Source: Melioribacter sp.
GTDB taxonomy: Bacteria > Bacteroidota > Ignavibacteria > Ignavibacteriales > Melioribacteraceae
Direction: 5' to 3'
Assembly: GCA_023250955.1 (NCBI GenBank)
Contig: JAHEZQ010000006.1
Span: 62,001 to 126,000, forward strand
Length of the DNA: 64,000 nucleotides
The notes under the pieces are model-generated. The model made no database searches, was not told the DNA's origin, and saw only the letters and a list, made by a program, of their open reading frames with translations. The position numbers and the translations under genes were made by a program. This document shows positions 40,081-44,587 of the stretch, piece after piece (within the stretch, counting starts at the first letter, position 1; each line of letters starts with the position of its first letter).

Positions 40081-40125
40081 AGACGAGGCCTCCCGACAAG
40101 TCGGGACAAGTTACAACTTCTCTAC
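40077..40125. repeat. Nested inverted repeat between convergent genes
   Basis: Outer arms GTAGAGA (40077-40083) and TCTCTAC (40119-40125) enclose a perfect hairpin TCCCGAC-AA-GTCGGGA (40091-40106). The left arm includes the stop codon of the SDR gene. No T run on either strand directly after it. It is probably a dispersed intergenic repeat that may also stop transcription from both sides. Confidence 0.6.
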
Positions 40126-40132
40126 AAAAAAT

Positions 40133-41818
40133 TTATCCTTCTAAAGAAAGTAAAAATGGATTCTCCAACGCATTAACCACCCATCTCACAAATCTAATTC
40201 CATCTGCTCCGTCAATAATTCGGTGATCGTAAGAAAGTGATAACGGCATTATCAATCGCGGTTCAAATTTTTCGTTAATGTAAACCGGTTCATAAGATGA
40301 TTTGGAGACACCAAGAATGGCAACTTCCGGAGAATTAACTATCGGAGTGAAATATGTTCCCCCAATTCCGCCGAGATTAGATATTGTAAAACAGCCGCCT
40401 TGCATTTCTTCAAGCGAAAGTTTTTTATCTCGTGCTTTTTTAGAGACCTCTTGTAATTCTATGGAAAGCTGAATTATATTTTTCTTATCAACATCTCTAA
40501 TAACCGGAACGAGCAAGCCGCGGTCGGTATCAACTGCGACACCAACATTTATAAATTTTTTGAATATGATCTCGCTTTTATCCATATCTACACTTGTGTT
40601 AAATTGAGGAAAGACCTTAAATGCTGATGCGATCACTTTAAGAAGAATTGCAGTTACAGTTAATTTGCCTCCGGCTTCACTTACTTTCTTGCCGAATTGC
40701 TTCCGCAAATTTTCAAGTTCAGTTATATCTGCCTTATCAAATTGTGTTACATGCGGAACTGTCGCCCATGAATATGATAAATGCTCTGCTGTTTTTCTCC
40801 GGATGTTACTCATTGGCTGGCGTTCTATTTCTCCCCACTTTGAAAAATCGGGAAGAGATTCTTTTACAACTCCAATACCGCCGGACGAGAAACCACCTTT
40901 TTGAATCTGCTCGTTCAAAGTTTTTGCATAAGTTTTAACATCTTCAATTGAGATTCTACCGCCCGATCCGCTGCCCCGTACTTGTGAAATATCAACACCG
41001 ATCTCATGTGCAAATCTTCTTACAGATGGTGCTGCAGGAACTACAACTTTGGAAATATTTTTTGGAACAGAAATTACTGTCGGTAAGTGATGAGTTAAAT
41101 CAATCTTTGATGGGGAAGGCTGTTGTTGGTTGTCAGTTGTTGGTTGTCGGTTGTCAGTAATTGGTGATTGGTAATTAGTGATTGGTTGTAATTCTTTATT
41201 CTCAATTATTAAAGCAATTTGTCCGACAGCTGCTTTATCACCATCTTTTACTTTAACTTCTTTAACAACACCGCCAACTTCAGTAGGAATTTCGATTGTT
41301 GCTTTGTCTGTTTCAATTTCAAGAATTATTTGATCGACGTCAACTTTATCGCCGATTTTTACTAATACTTTTGTAATGTTAGCAGTAATAATATTTTCAC
41401 CAAGCGGTGGGATTTTAAATTCGTAGTTATTAGTGATTGATGATTGGTGATCAGTTGTTGGTTGTGCTTCAATAACTTTTTCTGATTTCTGACTCCTTGT
41501 TTCTGATTCCTTATTTTTGATTTTTGGTTTCTTTTCTTCTCTAGTCTCCTCCGTCTCACTTTCAACTGTCAACTGCGAACTGCTAACTTCTATCTCGACC
41601 AATGGTTCGCCCACATTTGCTTTCTGACCGTCTTTCACATAAACTTTTTTTACAATACCGGAAACATCGGAAGGGATTTCTACTGTTGCTTTATCTGTTT
41701 CAATCTCAACAACAACTTGATCAACTTCAACTTTATCGCCTTCTTTCAAATTAACTTTGATCACATCCGCTGAGTTTATTCCATCACCAAGATGCGGTAA
41801 TCTAAAATCTACAATCAT
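40133..41818 (-). CDS. aceF: Dihydrolipoyl acetyltransferase, E2 of pyruvate dehydrogenase
   Basis: Core of the pyruvate dehydrogenase complex. Two lipoyl domains (about 1-77 and 131-206) with lipoylated Lys 43 and 172 in EIETDKAT; linkers 78-130 and 207-260; E3/E1-binding domain (about 263-298, APSVRRFAHEIGVD); catalytic domain (about 320-561) with active-site DHRIIDGADG. The linkers are unusual: instead of Ala/Pro-rich they are Thr/Gln/Asn/Ser/Lys-rich (QPTTDHQSSITNN, QPITNYQSPITDN) and their DNA is made of heptanucleotide repeats. It starts 90 bp after aceE stops, beyond a repeat element. Confidence 0.95.
   Translation of the reverse strand: MIVDFRLPHLGDGINSADVIKVNLKEGDKVEVDQVVVEIETDKATVEIPSDVSGIVKKVYVKDGQKANVGEPLVEIEVSSSQLTVESETEETREEKKPKIKNKESETRSQKSEKVIEAQPTTDHQSSITNNYEFKIPPLGENIITANITKVLVKIGDKVDVDQIILEIETDKATIEIPTEVGGVVKEVKVKDGDKAAVGQIALIIENKELQPITNYQSPITDNRQPTTDNQQQPSPSKIDLTHHLPTVISVPKNISKVVVPAAPSVRRFAHEIGVDISQVRGSGSGGRISIEDVKTYAKTLNEQIQKGGFSSGGIGVVKESLPDFSKWGEIERQPMSNIRRKTAEHLSYSWATVPHVTQFDKADITELENLRKQFGKKVSEAGGKLTVTAILLKVIASAFKVFPQFNTSVDMDKSEIIFKKFINVGVAVDTDRGLLVPVIRDVDKKNIIQLSIELQEVSKKARDKKLSLEEMQGGCFTISNLGGIGGTYFTPIVNSPEVAILGVSKSSYEPVYINEKFEPRLIMPLSLSYDHRIIDGADGIRFVRWVVNALENPFLLSLEG
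41126..41188. repeat. Heptanucleotide repeat array inside aceF (second linker)
   Basis: Nine consecutive 7-bp units with no gap, consensus T(T/C)(G/A)GT(T/G/A)(G/A) on the plus strand: TTGGTTG, TCAGTTG, TTGGTTG, TCGGTTG, TCAGTAA, TTGGTGA, TTGGTAA, TTAGTGA, TTGGTTG. They encode residues about 210-231 of E2. As 7 is not a multiple of 3, three units give a 7-residue period. The units resemble the short tandem heptamer repeats (STRR) known from cyanobacteria. Confidence 0.85.
41430..41589. repeat. Three further heptanucleotide arrays inside aceF (first linker)
   Basis: 41430-41464 has five units of the same family as the second-linker array (TTAGTGA, TTGATGA, TTGGTGA, TCAGTTG, TTGGTTG). 41480-41535 has eight looser units around TTCTGAT. 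41562-41589 has four units around TCAACTG. Together they encode most of residues 77-130, the linker between the two lipoyl domains. Confidence 0.75.
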
Positions 41819-41835: not shown

Positions 41836-41907
41836 TTCTGAGTTCGGCGATAGCCGAACGAAGAATCTCAAACTTAAATTAGTTAGAGATACTTCGCTTC
41901 GCTCAGT
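41836..41907. repeat. Paired inverted copies of a TCTGAG...GAATCTC repeat between aceE and aceF
   Basis: Left copy on plus: TTCTGAG, hairpin GTTCGGC-GATA-GCCGAAC (41842-41859), then GAAGAATCTC. Right copy on minus: CTGAGCGAAGCGAAGTATCTC (41886-41906, written 5' to 3' in two parts). The two are in opposite orientation, and the pair fills the spacer between the aceE stop and the aceF ribosome site. Similar to the degenerate copy at 35540. Confidence 0.7.
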
Positions 41908-41908
41908 A

Positions 41909-44587
41909 TTAAAACTTTGCCGGATCCTTTTTATCGGGATTAATTCCCAAATCCTTAACAGCCTTTTTTACAACCTCAGGTTTAATCTTTCCTTCTTTCA
42001 TCAAAGAATAAAGTGTTGCATAAACAATATGTTTTGCATCTACTTCAAAAAAATCACGCAAAGAAGTTCTTCCTTCGCTTCTTCCGAAACCGAAAGTGCC
42101 AAGAGAATGAAGCAGACCCGGAAGCCATTTTGCAATTGCATCGCTCGATAGCTGGACATAATCCGAAGCGGAAATAAAAACTCCGCTTTCACCTTTTGTT
42201 GCTTGAGAAACGTAAGGAACTTTTGCTTCTTTATCCGGATGAAACATATTCCAGCGCTCTGCTTCTTGTGCATCAAGATGTAAATTTTTGTAACTGGTCA
42301 CACTCCAAATATCAGTTGATACATTGTATTTGCTTTCAAGAATTTCTTGTGCTTTGATTACTTCGTTTAAAATTGTTCCGCTGCCAAGCAAGTGGGCTTT
42401 TATTTTCTGTTCCTTAACTCCACTCGCTCTAAATTTATACATTCCTCTTAATATTCCATCTCTAATACCTTTTGGCATTTCAGGCTGCGCATAATTCTCA
42501 TTCATAATTGTGATATAGTAATAAACATTCTCTTGTTTTTCATACATGCGGTAAATTCCATCACGAATAATTACTGCAAGTTCGTAAGCAAATGCCGGAT
42601 CGTAAGCAACAACATTTGGAATTGTATATGCAAGCAAGTGGCTATTTCCGTCTTGATGTTGTAAACCTTCACCTGCAAGAGTTGTGCGTCCTGCTGTAGC
42701 GCCAAGTAAAAATCCTTTACACCGCATATCACCTGCAGCCCATGCAAGATCACCAAATCTTTGGAAGCCAAACATAGAATAATAAGTAAAGAACGGAATT
42801 GTATTGATGCCGTGTGTGGCATATGAAGTACCAGCTGCAATGAATGACGACATCGAACCTGCTTCGGTAATTCCCTCTTCAAGAATTTGTCCGTTCTTTG
42901 CTTCTTTATAATATAGTAAGCTGTCTTTATCAACCGGTTCATATAATTGTCCCGGGTGAGAATAAATTCCAACTTGTCTGAACAAAGCTTCCATACCAAA
43001 TGTACGCGCTTCGTCAGGAACGATAGGAACAATTAAATGACCGAGTTCTTTATCTCGTAAAAGTTTGGCTAGAATTTTTACGAACACCATTGTTGTTGAA
43101 ACTTCACGTCCTTCAGTGCCGGAATAAAATTCTTCAAATAATTCTTCCGAAGGAGTTTTAAGAGGTGTAGCTTTAGTAACTCTTTTAGGAATGTAACCGC
43201 CGAGGGTTTTTCTTCTTTCTTTTAAATATTTGATCTCGGCAGAATCTTCGGGCGGACGGTAGAACGGTGTTTTCGTAATTTCATCATCGCTAATTGGTAT
43301 TGAGAATCGTGTTCTAAATTCTTTTAATTCTTCTTCATTCATTTTTTTCTGCTGATGGGTAATATTCTTTCCTTCGCCAGCTTCGCCAAGTCCGTAACCT
43401 TTAACAGTCTTTGCAAGAATAACTGTTGGTGCGCCTTTATGTTCAACGGCAGCTTTATAAGCGGCATAAACTTTTTCTGGATCATGTCCGCCGCGTTTCA
43501 TTTTTAACAGCTGCTCATCGGTATATTTATCCACAAGTTTTAATAATTCAGGATACTTTCCAAAAAAGTTTTCACGAATATATTTTCCATCATGTACAAT
43601 ATAATTTTGAGATTCACCATCAAGAACTTCATTCATTCTTTTAATCAGCGAGCCGGATTTATCAGCAACAAGTAGAGGATCCCAATCGCTTCCCCAAATG
43701 ACTTTTATTACGTTCCATCCTGCGCCACGGAAATTTGCTTCAAGTTCCTGAACAATATTTCCATTACCGCGAACCGGTCCATCAAGTCTTTGTAAATTAC
43801 AATTGATTACAAAAATTAAATTATCAAGTTTCTCACGCGATGCTAAAGAAATTGCACCAAGTGCTTCGGGTTCATCTGTTTCACCATCACCGAGAAAAGC
43901 CCAAACTTTTTGATCGCTTGGTTTCTTTAATCCGCGGTCCTCTAGATATCTGTTAAATCTTGCTTGATAAATTGCTTGTATCGGTCCAAGTCCCATTGAT
44001 ACGGTAGGAAATTCCCAGAAGTCAGGCATAAGCCACGGATGCGGATAAGAAGAAAGTCCGCCGCCCGGTTTTAATTCTCTTCTAAAATTTTCTAATTGCT
44101 CTTTGGAAATTCTACCTTCAAGAAAAGCGCGTGCATAAATACCTGGTGATGCATGACCTTGAAAATAAATTATATCACCTTCTGTGTCGCCATCTTTACC
44201 TCTGAAAAAATGATTGAAACCAATTTCATAGAGAGTTGCAGCCGAGGCGTAAGTGGATATATGTCCACCTATTCCCGCTTCTTCTTTGTTTGCGCGGACA
44301 ACCATTGCCATTGCATTCCAGCGTATTAAACTTTTAATGCGGCGTTCAATTTCTCTTCCGCCTGGGAAAGGAGGTTCTTGTTCTTTTGGTATTGTATTTA
44401 TATGAGGTGTGTTTGCGGTAAACGGAAGATCAACACCGGATTCGTGTGCGTAAGTATCAAGATTATGTAACAGTTCTCTTACTTTTTCCGGTCCTCCTGA
44501 TTGCAGCACATACTCTAATGATTCCAACCATTCACGGACTTCAATTTCATCTAAGCCTGAATATCCGTTTTTATTATTTTCGTTCAT
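41909..44587 (-). CDS. aceE: Pyruvate dehydrogenase E1, homodimeric type
   Basis: Thiamine-diphosphate enzyme that decarboxylates pyruvate and acetylates E2. 892 residues, the length of the single-chain AceE type (not the alpha/beta two-gene type). TPP motif GDGETDEPEALGA ending in NCNLQRLDG (about 235-270), N-terminal E2-binding region, and HQDGNSH-type segment in the middle domain (LQHQDGNSHLLAY). Start ATG at 44587 with weak ribosome site (AAAAGGATT). First gene of the aceE-aceF unit. Confidence 0.97.
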   Translation of the reverse strand: MNENNKNGYSGLDEIEVREWLESLEYVLQSGGPEKVRELLHNLDTYAHESGVDLPFTANTPHINTIPKEQEPPFPGGREIERRIKSLIRWNAMAMVVRANKEEAGIGGHISTYASAATLYEIGFNHFFRGKDGDTEGDIIYFQGHASPGIYARAFLEGRISKEQLENFRRELKPGGGLSSYPHPWLMPDFWEFPTVSMGLGPIQAIYQARFNRYLEDRGLKKPSDQKVWAFLGDGETDEPEALGAISLASREKLDNLIFVINCNLQRLDGPVRGNGNIVQELEANFRGAGWNVIKVIWGSDWDPLLVADKSGSLIKRMNEVLDGESQNYIVHDGKYIRENFFGKYPELLKLVDKYTDEQLLKMKRGGHDPEKVYAAYKAAVEHKGAPTVILAKTVKGYGLGEAGEGKNITHQQKKMNEEELKEFRTRFSIPISDDEITKTPFYRPPEDSAEIKYLKERRKTLGGYIPKRVTKATPLKTPSEELFEEFYSGTEGREVSTTMVFVKILAKLLRDKELGHLIVPIVPDEARTFGMEALFRQVGIYSHPGQLYEPVDKDSLLYYKEAKNGQILEEGITEAGSMSSFIAAGTSYATHGINTIPFFTYYSMFGFQRFGDLAWAAGDMRCKGFLLGATAGRTTLAGEGLQHQDGNSHLLAYTIPNVVAYDPAFAYELAVIIRDGIYRMYEKQENVYYYITIMNENYAQPEMPKGIRDGILRGMYKFRASGVKEQKIKAHLLGSGTILNEVIKAQEILESKYNVSTDIWSVTSYKNLHLDAQEAERWNMFHPDKEAKVPYVSQATKGESGVFISASDYVQLSSDAIAKWLPGLLHSLGTFGFGRSEGRTSLRDFFEVDAKHIVYATLYSLMKEGKIKPEVVKKAVKDLGINPDKKDPAKF

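Follow-up and report, generated by a model that had tools for sequence, protein, structure and literature searches.

Degenerate heptanucleotide arrays in the linkers of a Melioribacter pyruvate dehydrogenase E2 recur in other enzymes and beside four-helix-bundle genes

Heptanucleotide repeats of cyanobacteria go by the name STRR. The palindromic elements of Rickettsia are copies that share one sequence. For the TAACTGA repeat, the available text of MacGregor 2015 (PMC4679880) describes tandem 7-bp units scattered in the genome, mostly intergenic with some in ORFs, and considers repeats within genes likeliest when unit numbers are multiples of three. It also reports that indels among Cyanothece strains come mostly in 7-nt increments, that some genomes hold mixed heptamers, and that the ORF cases are mostly short hypothetical proteins or protein ends, the exception being an RNA polymerase beta'-like ORF. 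According to the accessible part of PMC4692102, long repeats are under-represented in ORFs, and a survey cited there found simple repeats suppressed mid-gene in prokaryotes. The available portion of PMC2229807 makes the Rickettsia elements, 105 to 146 bp with long stem-loops, a precedent for in-frame selfish DNA in conserved proteins; they also lie between genes and appeared neutral in a tested case. The Coxiella IVS is located in 23S rRNA and combines an S23/IVP ORF (S23p), tandem heptamers of variable number upstream of it, and inverted complementary ends with a 28-bp terminal stem (PMC4990558, available portion). Among the literature matches listed, nothing else connects heptamers with an S23 protein. 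Heptamers in PDH E2 linkers or flanking four-helix-bundle genes appeared in no title or abstract start among those matches, most subscription journals lying outside the coverage.

We analyzed a window of 64,000 nucleotides (the whole stretch of DNA under study) from a 67-contig draft genome of Melioribacter sp. with 3,264,875 bases. By Pfam, its PDH E2 gene encodes lipoyl domain 1, linker 1, lipoyl domain 2, linker 2, an E3-binding domain, and a catalytic domain; the lipoyl, E3-binding, and acyltransferase domains that define an E2 are all present. The domain order and the flexible linkers agree with E2 as described in the available part of PMC8421416, where domain number varies in nature. What differs is that the linkers here are written in heptamers out of phase with the codons and that a domain-loss junction lies in repeat-bearing linkers. 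Both linkers consist largely of degenerate 7-bp arrays, which fill most of each linker (Table 1). TRF reported arrays at 41122-41186 and 41479-41532, and a period scan added ones within 41407-41472 and 41538-41606, which were trimmed by eye to arrays B and D.

Table 1. Features of the PDH E2 region, in window coordinates
Feature	Coordinates	Strand	Details
PDH E2 (dihydrolipoyl acetyltransferase)	40133..41818	minus	561 aa; ORF call and Pfam
Array A, linker 2	41122..41189	minus	~9 units; family TYRGTKR as read on plus strand; CAACCAA/CAACTGA/TCACTAA on coding strand; encodes QPITNYQSPITDNRQPTTDNQ
Linker 2 short start	41190..41212	minus	~2.5 units resembling TTGAGAA family (coding strand); by reading the sequence, unscored
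Lipoyl domain 2 and edges	41194..41426	minus	between arrays A and B; missing in E2 of G007 and G008
Array B, linker 1	~41427..41465	minus	~5 units; family and orientation as array A; encodes QPTTDHQSSITNNY; ends by eye
Array C, linker 1	41479..41532	minus	second family, TYYTKRY on plus strand; AATCAGA/AATAAGG on coding strand
Array D, start of linker 1	~41558..41595	minus	GTTAGCA/GTTCGCA/GTTGACA on coding strand; orientation opposite to arrays A and B; ends by eye
PDH E1, upstream neighbor of E2	41909..44587	minus	892 aa; homodimeric type by length and Pfam

The initial annotation of this DNA had described linkers built of 7-bp units with two same-family arrays of 9 and 5 units, and arrays A and B, which share one orientation, agree with it; the peptides that it listed (QPTTDHQ, QPITNYQ, and QPTTDNQ) are present in the E2 translation. 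The span that it gave for the repeats, 41126-41589, also takes in lipoyl domain 2, inside which neither TRF nor the period scan detected an array. The TTGAGAA-like start of linker 2 is weak in our E2 and looks longer by eye in three relatives (L031, L048, and L064). The period scan found no period-7 array in the E1 gene at the cut used. Short REP-like palindromes, recognized by eye, flank the E2 gene at 40081-40110 and 41838-41860.

Over the whole 64 kb, scanned in 42-base windows, the top period-7 score was 31. Among periods 4 to 21, only the multiples 14 (31) and 21 (32) equaled the period-7 best, the next score being 29 at period 13. None of 500 codon shuffles per linker reached the observed score (P = 0.002, the floor of the test), so the period-7 signal resides in the DNA rather than in the residues. 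When the two linkers were folded as RNA, each against 60 codon shuffles, neither stood out as more stable (z = -0.12 and -1.95), and stable hairpins in our E2 linkers are thus not supported. Linker 2 of L064 likewise had no unusual fold (z = -1.15), though its arms look complementary by eye. Among linkers with period 7 at P ≤ 0.004, only linker 1 of L061 fell below -2.5; its relative L136 was at -2.25.

Named E2 relatives belong to Melioribacter, Stygiobacter, and other Ignavibacteria, with VEPI01000046 ("Melioribacter sp. MnB_16") as the best match; the named near relatives are MAGs. An E2 match was present in 52 of 57 genomes, and 30 loci were compared. Of 11 genus genomes, 8 had period 7 at P ≤ 0.004 (11 of 19 linkers), as did 6 of another 12 named records (9 of 20 linkers), compared with 0 of 18 genomes from other genera of the family or order (0 of 36 linkers). 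These counts leave out duplicates (L060, L062, L065, L068, and L094), partial loci (L057 and L074), L073, and most other loci from outside Ignavibacteria; L032 and L055 are absent from the E2 tree. One genus genome (G006) had 16 matches to TYRGTKR yet no E2 linker at P ≤ 0.004. The second E2 of our own genome showed no clear excess at period 7 (22, against 16 to 21 at six other periods).

Since E2 linkers need flexibility, selection could have favored a Q/P/T/N-rich linker, with the DNA period as an incidental outcome. We consider this very improbable: the period disappears when codons are shuffled and the residues kept, the second E2 and the E2s of the 18 other-genera genomes lack it, and RpiA and Fmt carry such stretches too. 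Nor is there support for the recruitment suggested earlier, in the sense of a function: the second E2 and the E2s of those 18 genomes do without the repeats. An assembly or binning artefact is more improbable still. The genomes are drafts and L031 has a run of N inside its linker 2 array, but the pattern recurs in separate assemblies, including G001, G007, and G018 (5, 8, and 1 contigs), and the E2 reading frames stay open.

A change of linker length in steps of 21 bp had also been predicted. Against the E2 of G003, which is 91% identical over the protein, our gene differs by one 21-bp indel in array C and one in linker 2; the array C indel is seen relative to L031, L042, and L045. The linker of DsbD, between its N-terminal and membrane domains (Pfam), measures 58, 59, 51, 44, 44, 58, 44, 65, 76, 56, and 61 residues in 11 genus genomes, 7 of which are equal modulo 7 (the 44/51/58/65 series); as the relatives share history, the 11 lengths are not independent events. 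Period 7 at P = 0.002 was found in DsbD of 7 of the 11 (a different seven) and in 0 of 4 parsed copies from outside the genus (18 of 30 loci parsed). The two E2 indels and the DsbD series bear the prediction out. Other changes occur besides such steps: E2 linker lengths overall show no fit to steps of 7 residues, and one group of relatives has lost a domain. Our E2 and that of G003 are further separated by a 3-bp gap next to a stretch of N and by two insertions of 30 bp in the G003 gene. Such in-frame 30-bp insertions occur twice in G003 (L031, linkers 1 and 2) and once in G008 (L042, linker 1), share linkers with heptamer arrays, and have short inverted arms by eye. In one DsbD linker (L345), a stretch with short inverted arms, also by eye, lies alongside the heptamer array.

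The E2s of G007 and G008 are short by about 92 codons, corresponding to lipoyl domain 2 plus the inner portion of each linker. In the DNA alignment, array B runs straight into array A; in the protein alignment, the end of array C meets the beginning of linker 2. The junction is within repeat-bearing linkers, its exact point differing by alignment. On the E2 tree, G007 and G008 are sisters (100/92) and group with our E2 and that of G003 (98/96), and the genus also holds two-lipoyl E2s in G001, G002, G005, G006, and G010. The loss is therefore derived, as G007 and G008 nest among two-domain relatives. Recombination between similar arrays in the ancestor of G007 and G008 would be the simplest route. 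The one-domain labels of L048 (N, broken start) and L069 (begins at a contig end) are undependable and were not used. Lipoyl-domain loss as a general mark of heptamers was rejected, because L071 and L072 also have a one-lipoyl E2 and carry no significant heptamers.

Next, we consider how far the repeats reach beyond E2. A search of our genome with three-unit patterns gave 13 exact matches for TYRGTKR and 14 for TYYTKRY, against 2 and 0 for the reversed controls, and the TYRGTKR matches vary at all four degenerate positions. As the initial annotation had anticipated, the same heptamers are found elsewhere: the two families occupy 15 loci outside the window, of which 7 (8 with L012) are in ORFs, 6 are intergenic, and 1 runs over a gene end. 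In a 658-kb sample of our genome, not picked for arrays except that the window is included, there were 18 period-7 arrays at a looser cut and 10 at a stricter one (6 of the 10 outside the window), and none of nine other periods exceeded 9 arrays at the looser cut or 1 at the stricter. The 18 comprise 11 coding (4 of them in E2), 3 partial, and 4 intergenic arrays; without the window, the 14 that remain are 7 coding, 3 partial, and 4 intergenic. Coding sequence makes up 92% of the 658 kb, and the share of arrays that are coding remains lower than that. Confinement of heptamers to intergenic DNA was rejected on the arrays in ORFs, both at the other loci and in this sample. Placement in coding linkers, which the initial annotation had singled out, therefore holds for E2 but is not special to it.

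Arrays of TYRGTKR occur in 11 of 12 genus genomes and in 3 of 45 others. The reversed control pattern, itself a 7-bp unit, occurs in 7 of 57 genomes (G000, G005, G009, G010, G011, G044, and G048), 5 of which are in the genus. G018, a member of a related genus, had 5 and 2 period-7 arrays in 400 kb at the two cuts, and other periods gave at most 3 and at most 2, which is little or no excess. These arrays resemble TAACTGA repeats as tandem 7-bp units beyond chance, scattered in the genome and sometimes in ORFs, but TAACTGA is one exact heptamer and mostly intergenic (PMC4679880, available text), whereas here degenerate families rather than a near-identical unit lie in the middle of enzymes, without a predominance of intergenic sites, and in inverted pairs around a gene family. 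The same source reports TAACTGA upstream of start codons in Beggiatoaceae and proposes such repeats as sites for an RNA- or DNA-binding regulator. That the arrays here are regulator sites is very unlikely, as many of them are inside genes and their many sequence families do not fit a single binder.

Arrays recur in other enzymes as well. By Pfam, hosts include RpiA, the Fmt C-terminal domain, an AMP-binding (MenE-like) ligase, GH31, and an integrase, and in AlaRS an array sits between the SAD and DHHA1 domains. Between two matched stretches, our RpiA has 58 residues, compared with 3 in a solved RpiA (6zxt). Among 12 parsed relatives (23 of 30 fetched loci given), 6 had significant period 7 (P = 0.003, the floor), namely, five genus copies, with 70 to 118 residues between two motifs, and G018, with 67. 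Of those without period 7, G016 has 61 residues and the other five have 47 to 49. The heptamers differ among the array-bearing relatives. In Fmt, period 7 (P = 0.002) was present in 5 of 8 parsed genus copies and in 0 of 5 outside the genus (lowest value, 0.016; 19 of 28 loci given, 13 parsed). The copies outside the genus have a short loop at the array site, and 16 residues of the stretch are missing from solved Fmt. In both RpiA and Fmt, the array is thus an in-frame insertion in a conserved protein gene that is missing from orthologues. E2 linkers are present in all relatives, which leaves an insertion in E2 hypothetical.

At one Fmt site, our genome and G008 carry one kind of paired array and G003 and G007 another. 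Given the sister relationship of G007 and G008 in the E2 tree, this pattern reflects turnover, exchange between lineages, or paralogy. Our own genome has a second Fmt place, 80% identical to the query; the two Fmt-like places are G000:C13:2-535 and G000:C37:5270-5776, in a genome rated 100% complete, with contamination at 0.27%. The MenE-like ligase is no longer for its array than a solved relative, and an insertion there is not supported. The loop in seven parsed relatives (of 20) measures 66, 73 (four times), 80, and 81 residues, and at this site arrays persist while units drift and length is mostly constant.

The MenE-like site is what would be expected if each array had arisen in place by slippage on a chance short repeat, with nothing moving, polymerase-DNA contact favoring heptamers, and disordered linkers tolerating them. 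Slippage is also the origin proposed for abundant heptamers in the available parts of PMC4679880 and PMC4692102. We regard this account as possible but rather unlikely, given that the same degenerate families occur at unrelated loci and in 11 of the 12 genus genomes and that near relatives carry different array families at one and the same place in Fmt.

A further pattern links the arrays to one gene family. In related genomes, same-family arrays in opposite orientation lie about 400 bp apart and enclose a gene of 121 to 123 residues. The enclosed gene of L140 belongs to PF05635 (23S rRNA-intervening-sequence protein; its bAvd match was below the cut-off), and the other enclosed genes were recovered by a PF05635 family search. 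Period-7 arrays were present on both flanks, typically inverted, at 15 of 30 genus four-helix-bundle loci (30 compared of 112 matches) and at 0 of 209 ordinary genes, these controls being from our own genome only. The flanks reached 175 bases out from the profile match for the four-helix-bundle genes, possibly with some coding bases, and 150 bases for the controls. At a slightly higher cut, periods 5, 6, and 9 gave no such genus locus and period 8 gave one. By eye, the flanking arrays belong to the same families as those of E2. The arrays are hence not direct repeats alone; at these loci they form inverted pairs.

Across the order (53 loci minus L212, L216, and L219, at contig ends), both flanks had period 7 at 27 of 50 loci (17 of 30 genus loci and 10 of 20 from elsewhere in the order), period 8 at 4 of 50 (L154, L156, L163, and L166), and any other period from 5 to 12 at none. 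Period 7 as a trait of all four-helix-bundle loci was rejected on the four period-8 loci and on the 19 of 50 with no shared period at the cut. Two further loci (L153 and L168) have a period-8 array on one flank. The two flanks were complementary above the shuffle maximum at 35 of 50 loci, the null being a plain letter shuffle of 40 rounds.

The paired arms are polarized. Of 31 two-armed loci, 20 were G-rich on the left and C-rich on the right, 0 were the reverse, and 11 were unclear; because an inverted pair reads alike on either strand, the G-then-C order is a property of the element. Eighteen other neighboring array pairs were G-then-C in 8 cases (5 of them four-helix-bundle loci), reverse in 0, G-G in 3, and unclear in 7, one of the G-G pairs being arrays A and B of the window. 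Inverted, polarized pairing around one gene family is likewise unexpected from independent slippage. Along the coding strand of E2, the stretches follow one another as D (11 G, 4 C), C (9 G, 7 C), and B (1 G, 12 C), then, after lipoyl domain 2, the short start (4 G, 1 C) and A (3 G, 24 C). In each E2 linker, a G-type stretch thus stands ahead of a C-type arm, perhaps as in the inverted pairs. A family search found no four-helix-bundle gene near E2.

We favor, with a probability of about 0.6, the reading that heptamer-armed repeats are tolerated in frame in linkers and loops and change by slippage and recombination. The repeats of the E2 linkers would then belong to a class of degenerate heptamers found throughout the genus, present as single arrays or as inverted pairs (G-rich arm, then C-rich) with or without genes between them, the four-helix-bundle S23/IVP gene being one recurrent gene between the arms. 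Copies in genes would survive only in frame, in linkers or loops where extra residues do little harm, and would gain and lose 7-bp units by slippage; changes by three units or a multiple of three (21 bp, 7 residues) would pass coding selection. Lipoyl domain 2, with similar arrays to either side, could be deleted by recombination, and the heptamer-coded segments would act as ordinary flexible linkers. Copies probably move, and the E2 arrays probably descend from such elements instead of having arisen in place; slippage and recombination are the presumed mechanisms, and the coded segments are presumably neutral. E2 is a hotspot of a wider genus habit. The initial interpretation is partly supported, being right about coding heptamers and 21-bp steps, but it is too narrow in missing this habit and the arrays that frame a gene family.

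A much more speculative extension, which we think improbable, is that four-helix-bundle (S23/bAvd-like) proteins mobilize, perhaps via RNA, minimal selfish elements without any conserved sequence, defined solely by inverted arms with a register of 7 or 8 bp. Arms copied with variation might then have seeded new families, entered housekeeping genes in frame, rewritten the same loops, and helped to remove the lipoyl domain in PDH E2.

The heptamer arrays work like Rickettsia palindromic elements without being members of that class. Both lie in frame in conserved proteins as well as between genes (PMC2229807, available portion). Unlike the Rickettsia elements, the loci here share only a 7-bp register and a set of families, which differ by locus and by relative, and our E2 linkers have no unusual stem. 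Like the Coxiella IVS, the four-helix-bundle loci combine an S23/IVP ORF, inverted complementary ends, and tandem heptamers by the ORF (PMC4990558, available portion), but those read with gene context sit between protein genes. An S23/IVP ORF between inverted ends, often found at four-helix-bundle loci, is absent at E2, where the arrays stand without an ORF.

Because heptamers run out of step with codons, they are presumably the repeats least easily tolerated mid-gene, yet the genus carries them in PDH E2, RpiA, Fmt, AlaRS, and DsbD despite the mid-gene suppression of simple repeats cited in the accessible part of PMC4692102. A natural seven-residue linker series and a natural lipoyl-domain loss offer material on the importance of linker length and lipoyl-domain number, and the array flanks give a new handle on the role of an abundant four-helix-bundle family outside rRNA.

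Several loci showed further features. An aminotransferase-like gene lies beside the four-helix-bundle locus in four cases (L140, L143, L145, and L148), with a heptamer array that encodes its N terminus (MNKKQPTTNNQKPTTK and variants). At L145, the locus of G007, both arrays are kept and the four-helix-bundle gene is reduced to two pieces in the family search. Inverted arrays about 1.7 to 1.9 kb apart surround a DUF5131-type gene (Pfam on the L144 copy) in G001 (L142:591-2526) and G005 (L144:702-2407); a second enclosed gene without a Pfam match differs between these genomes, and the outer neighbors look alike. At L189:12461-12561, L196:19842-19923, and L149:955-1018, inverted pairs have almost nothing between their arms and look like emptied loci.
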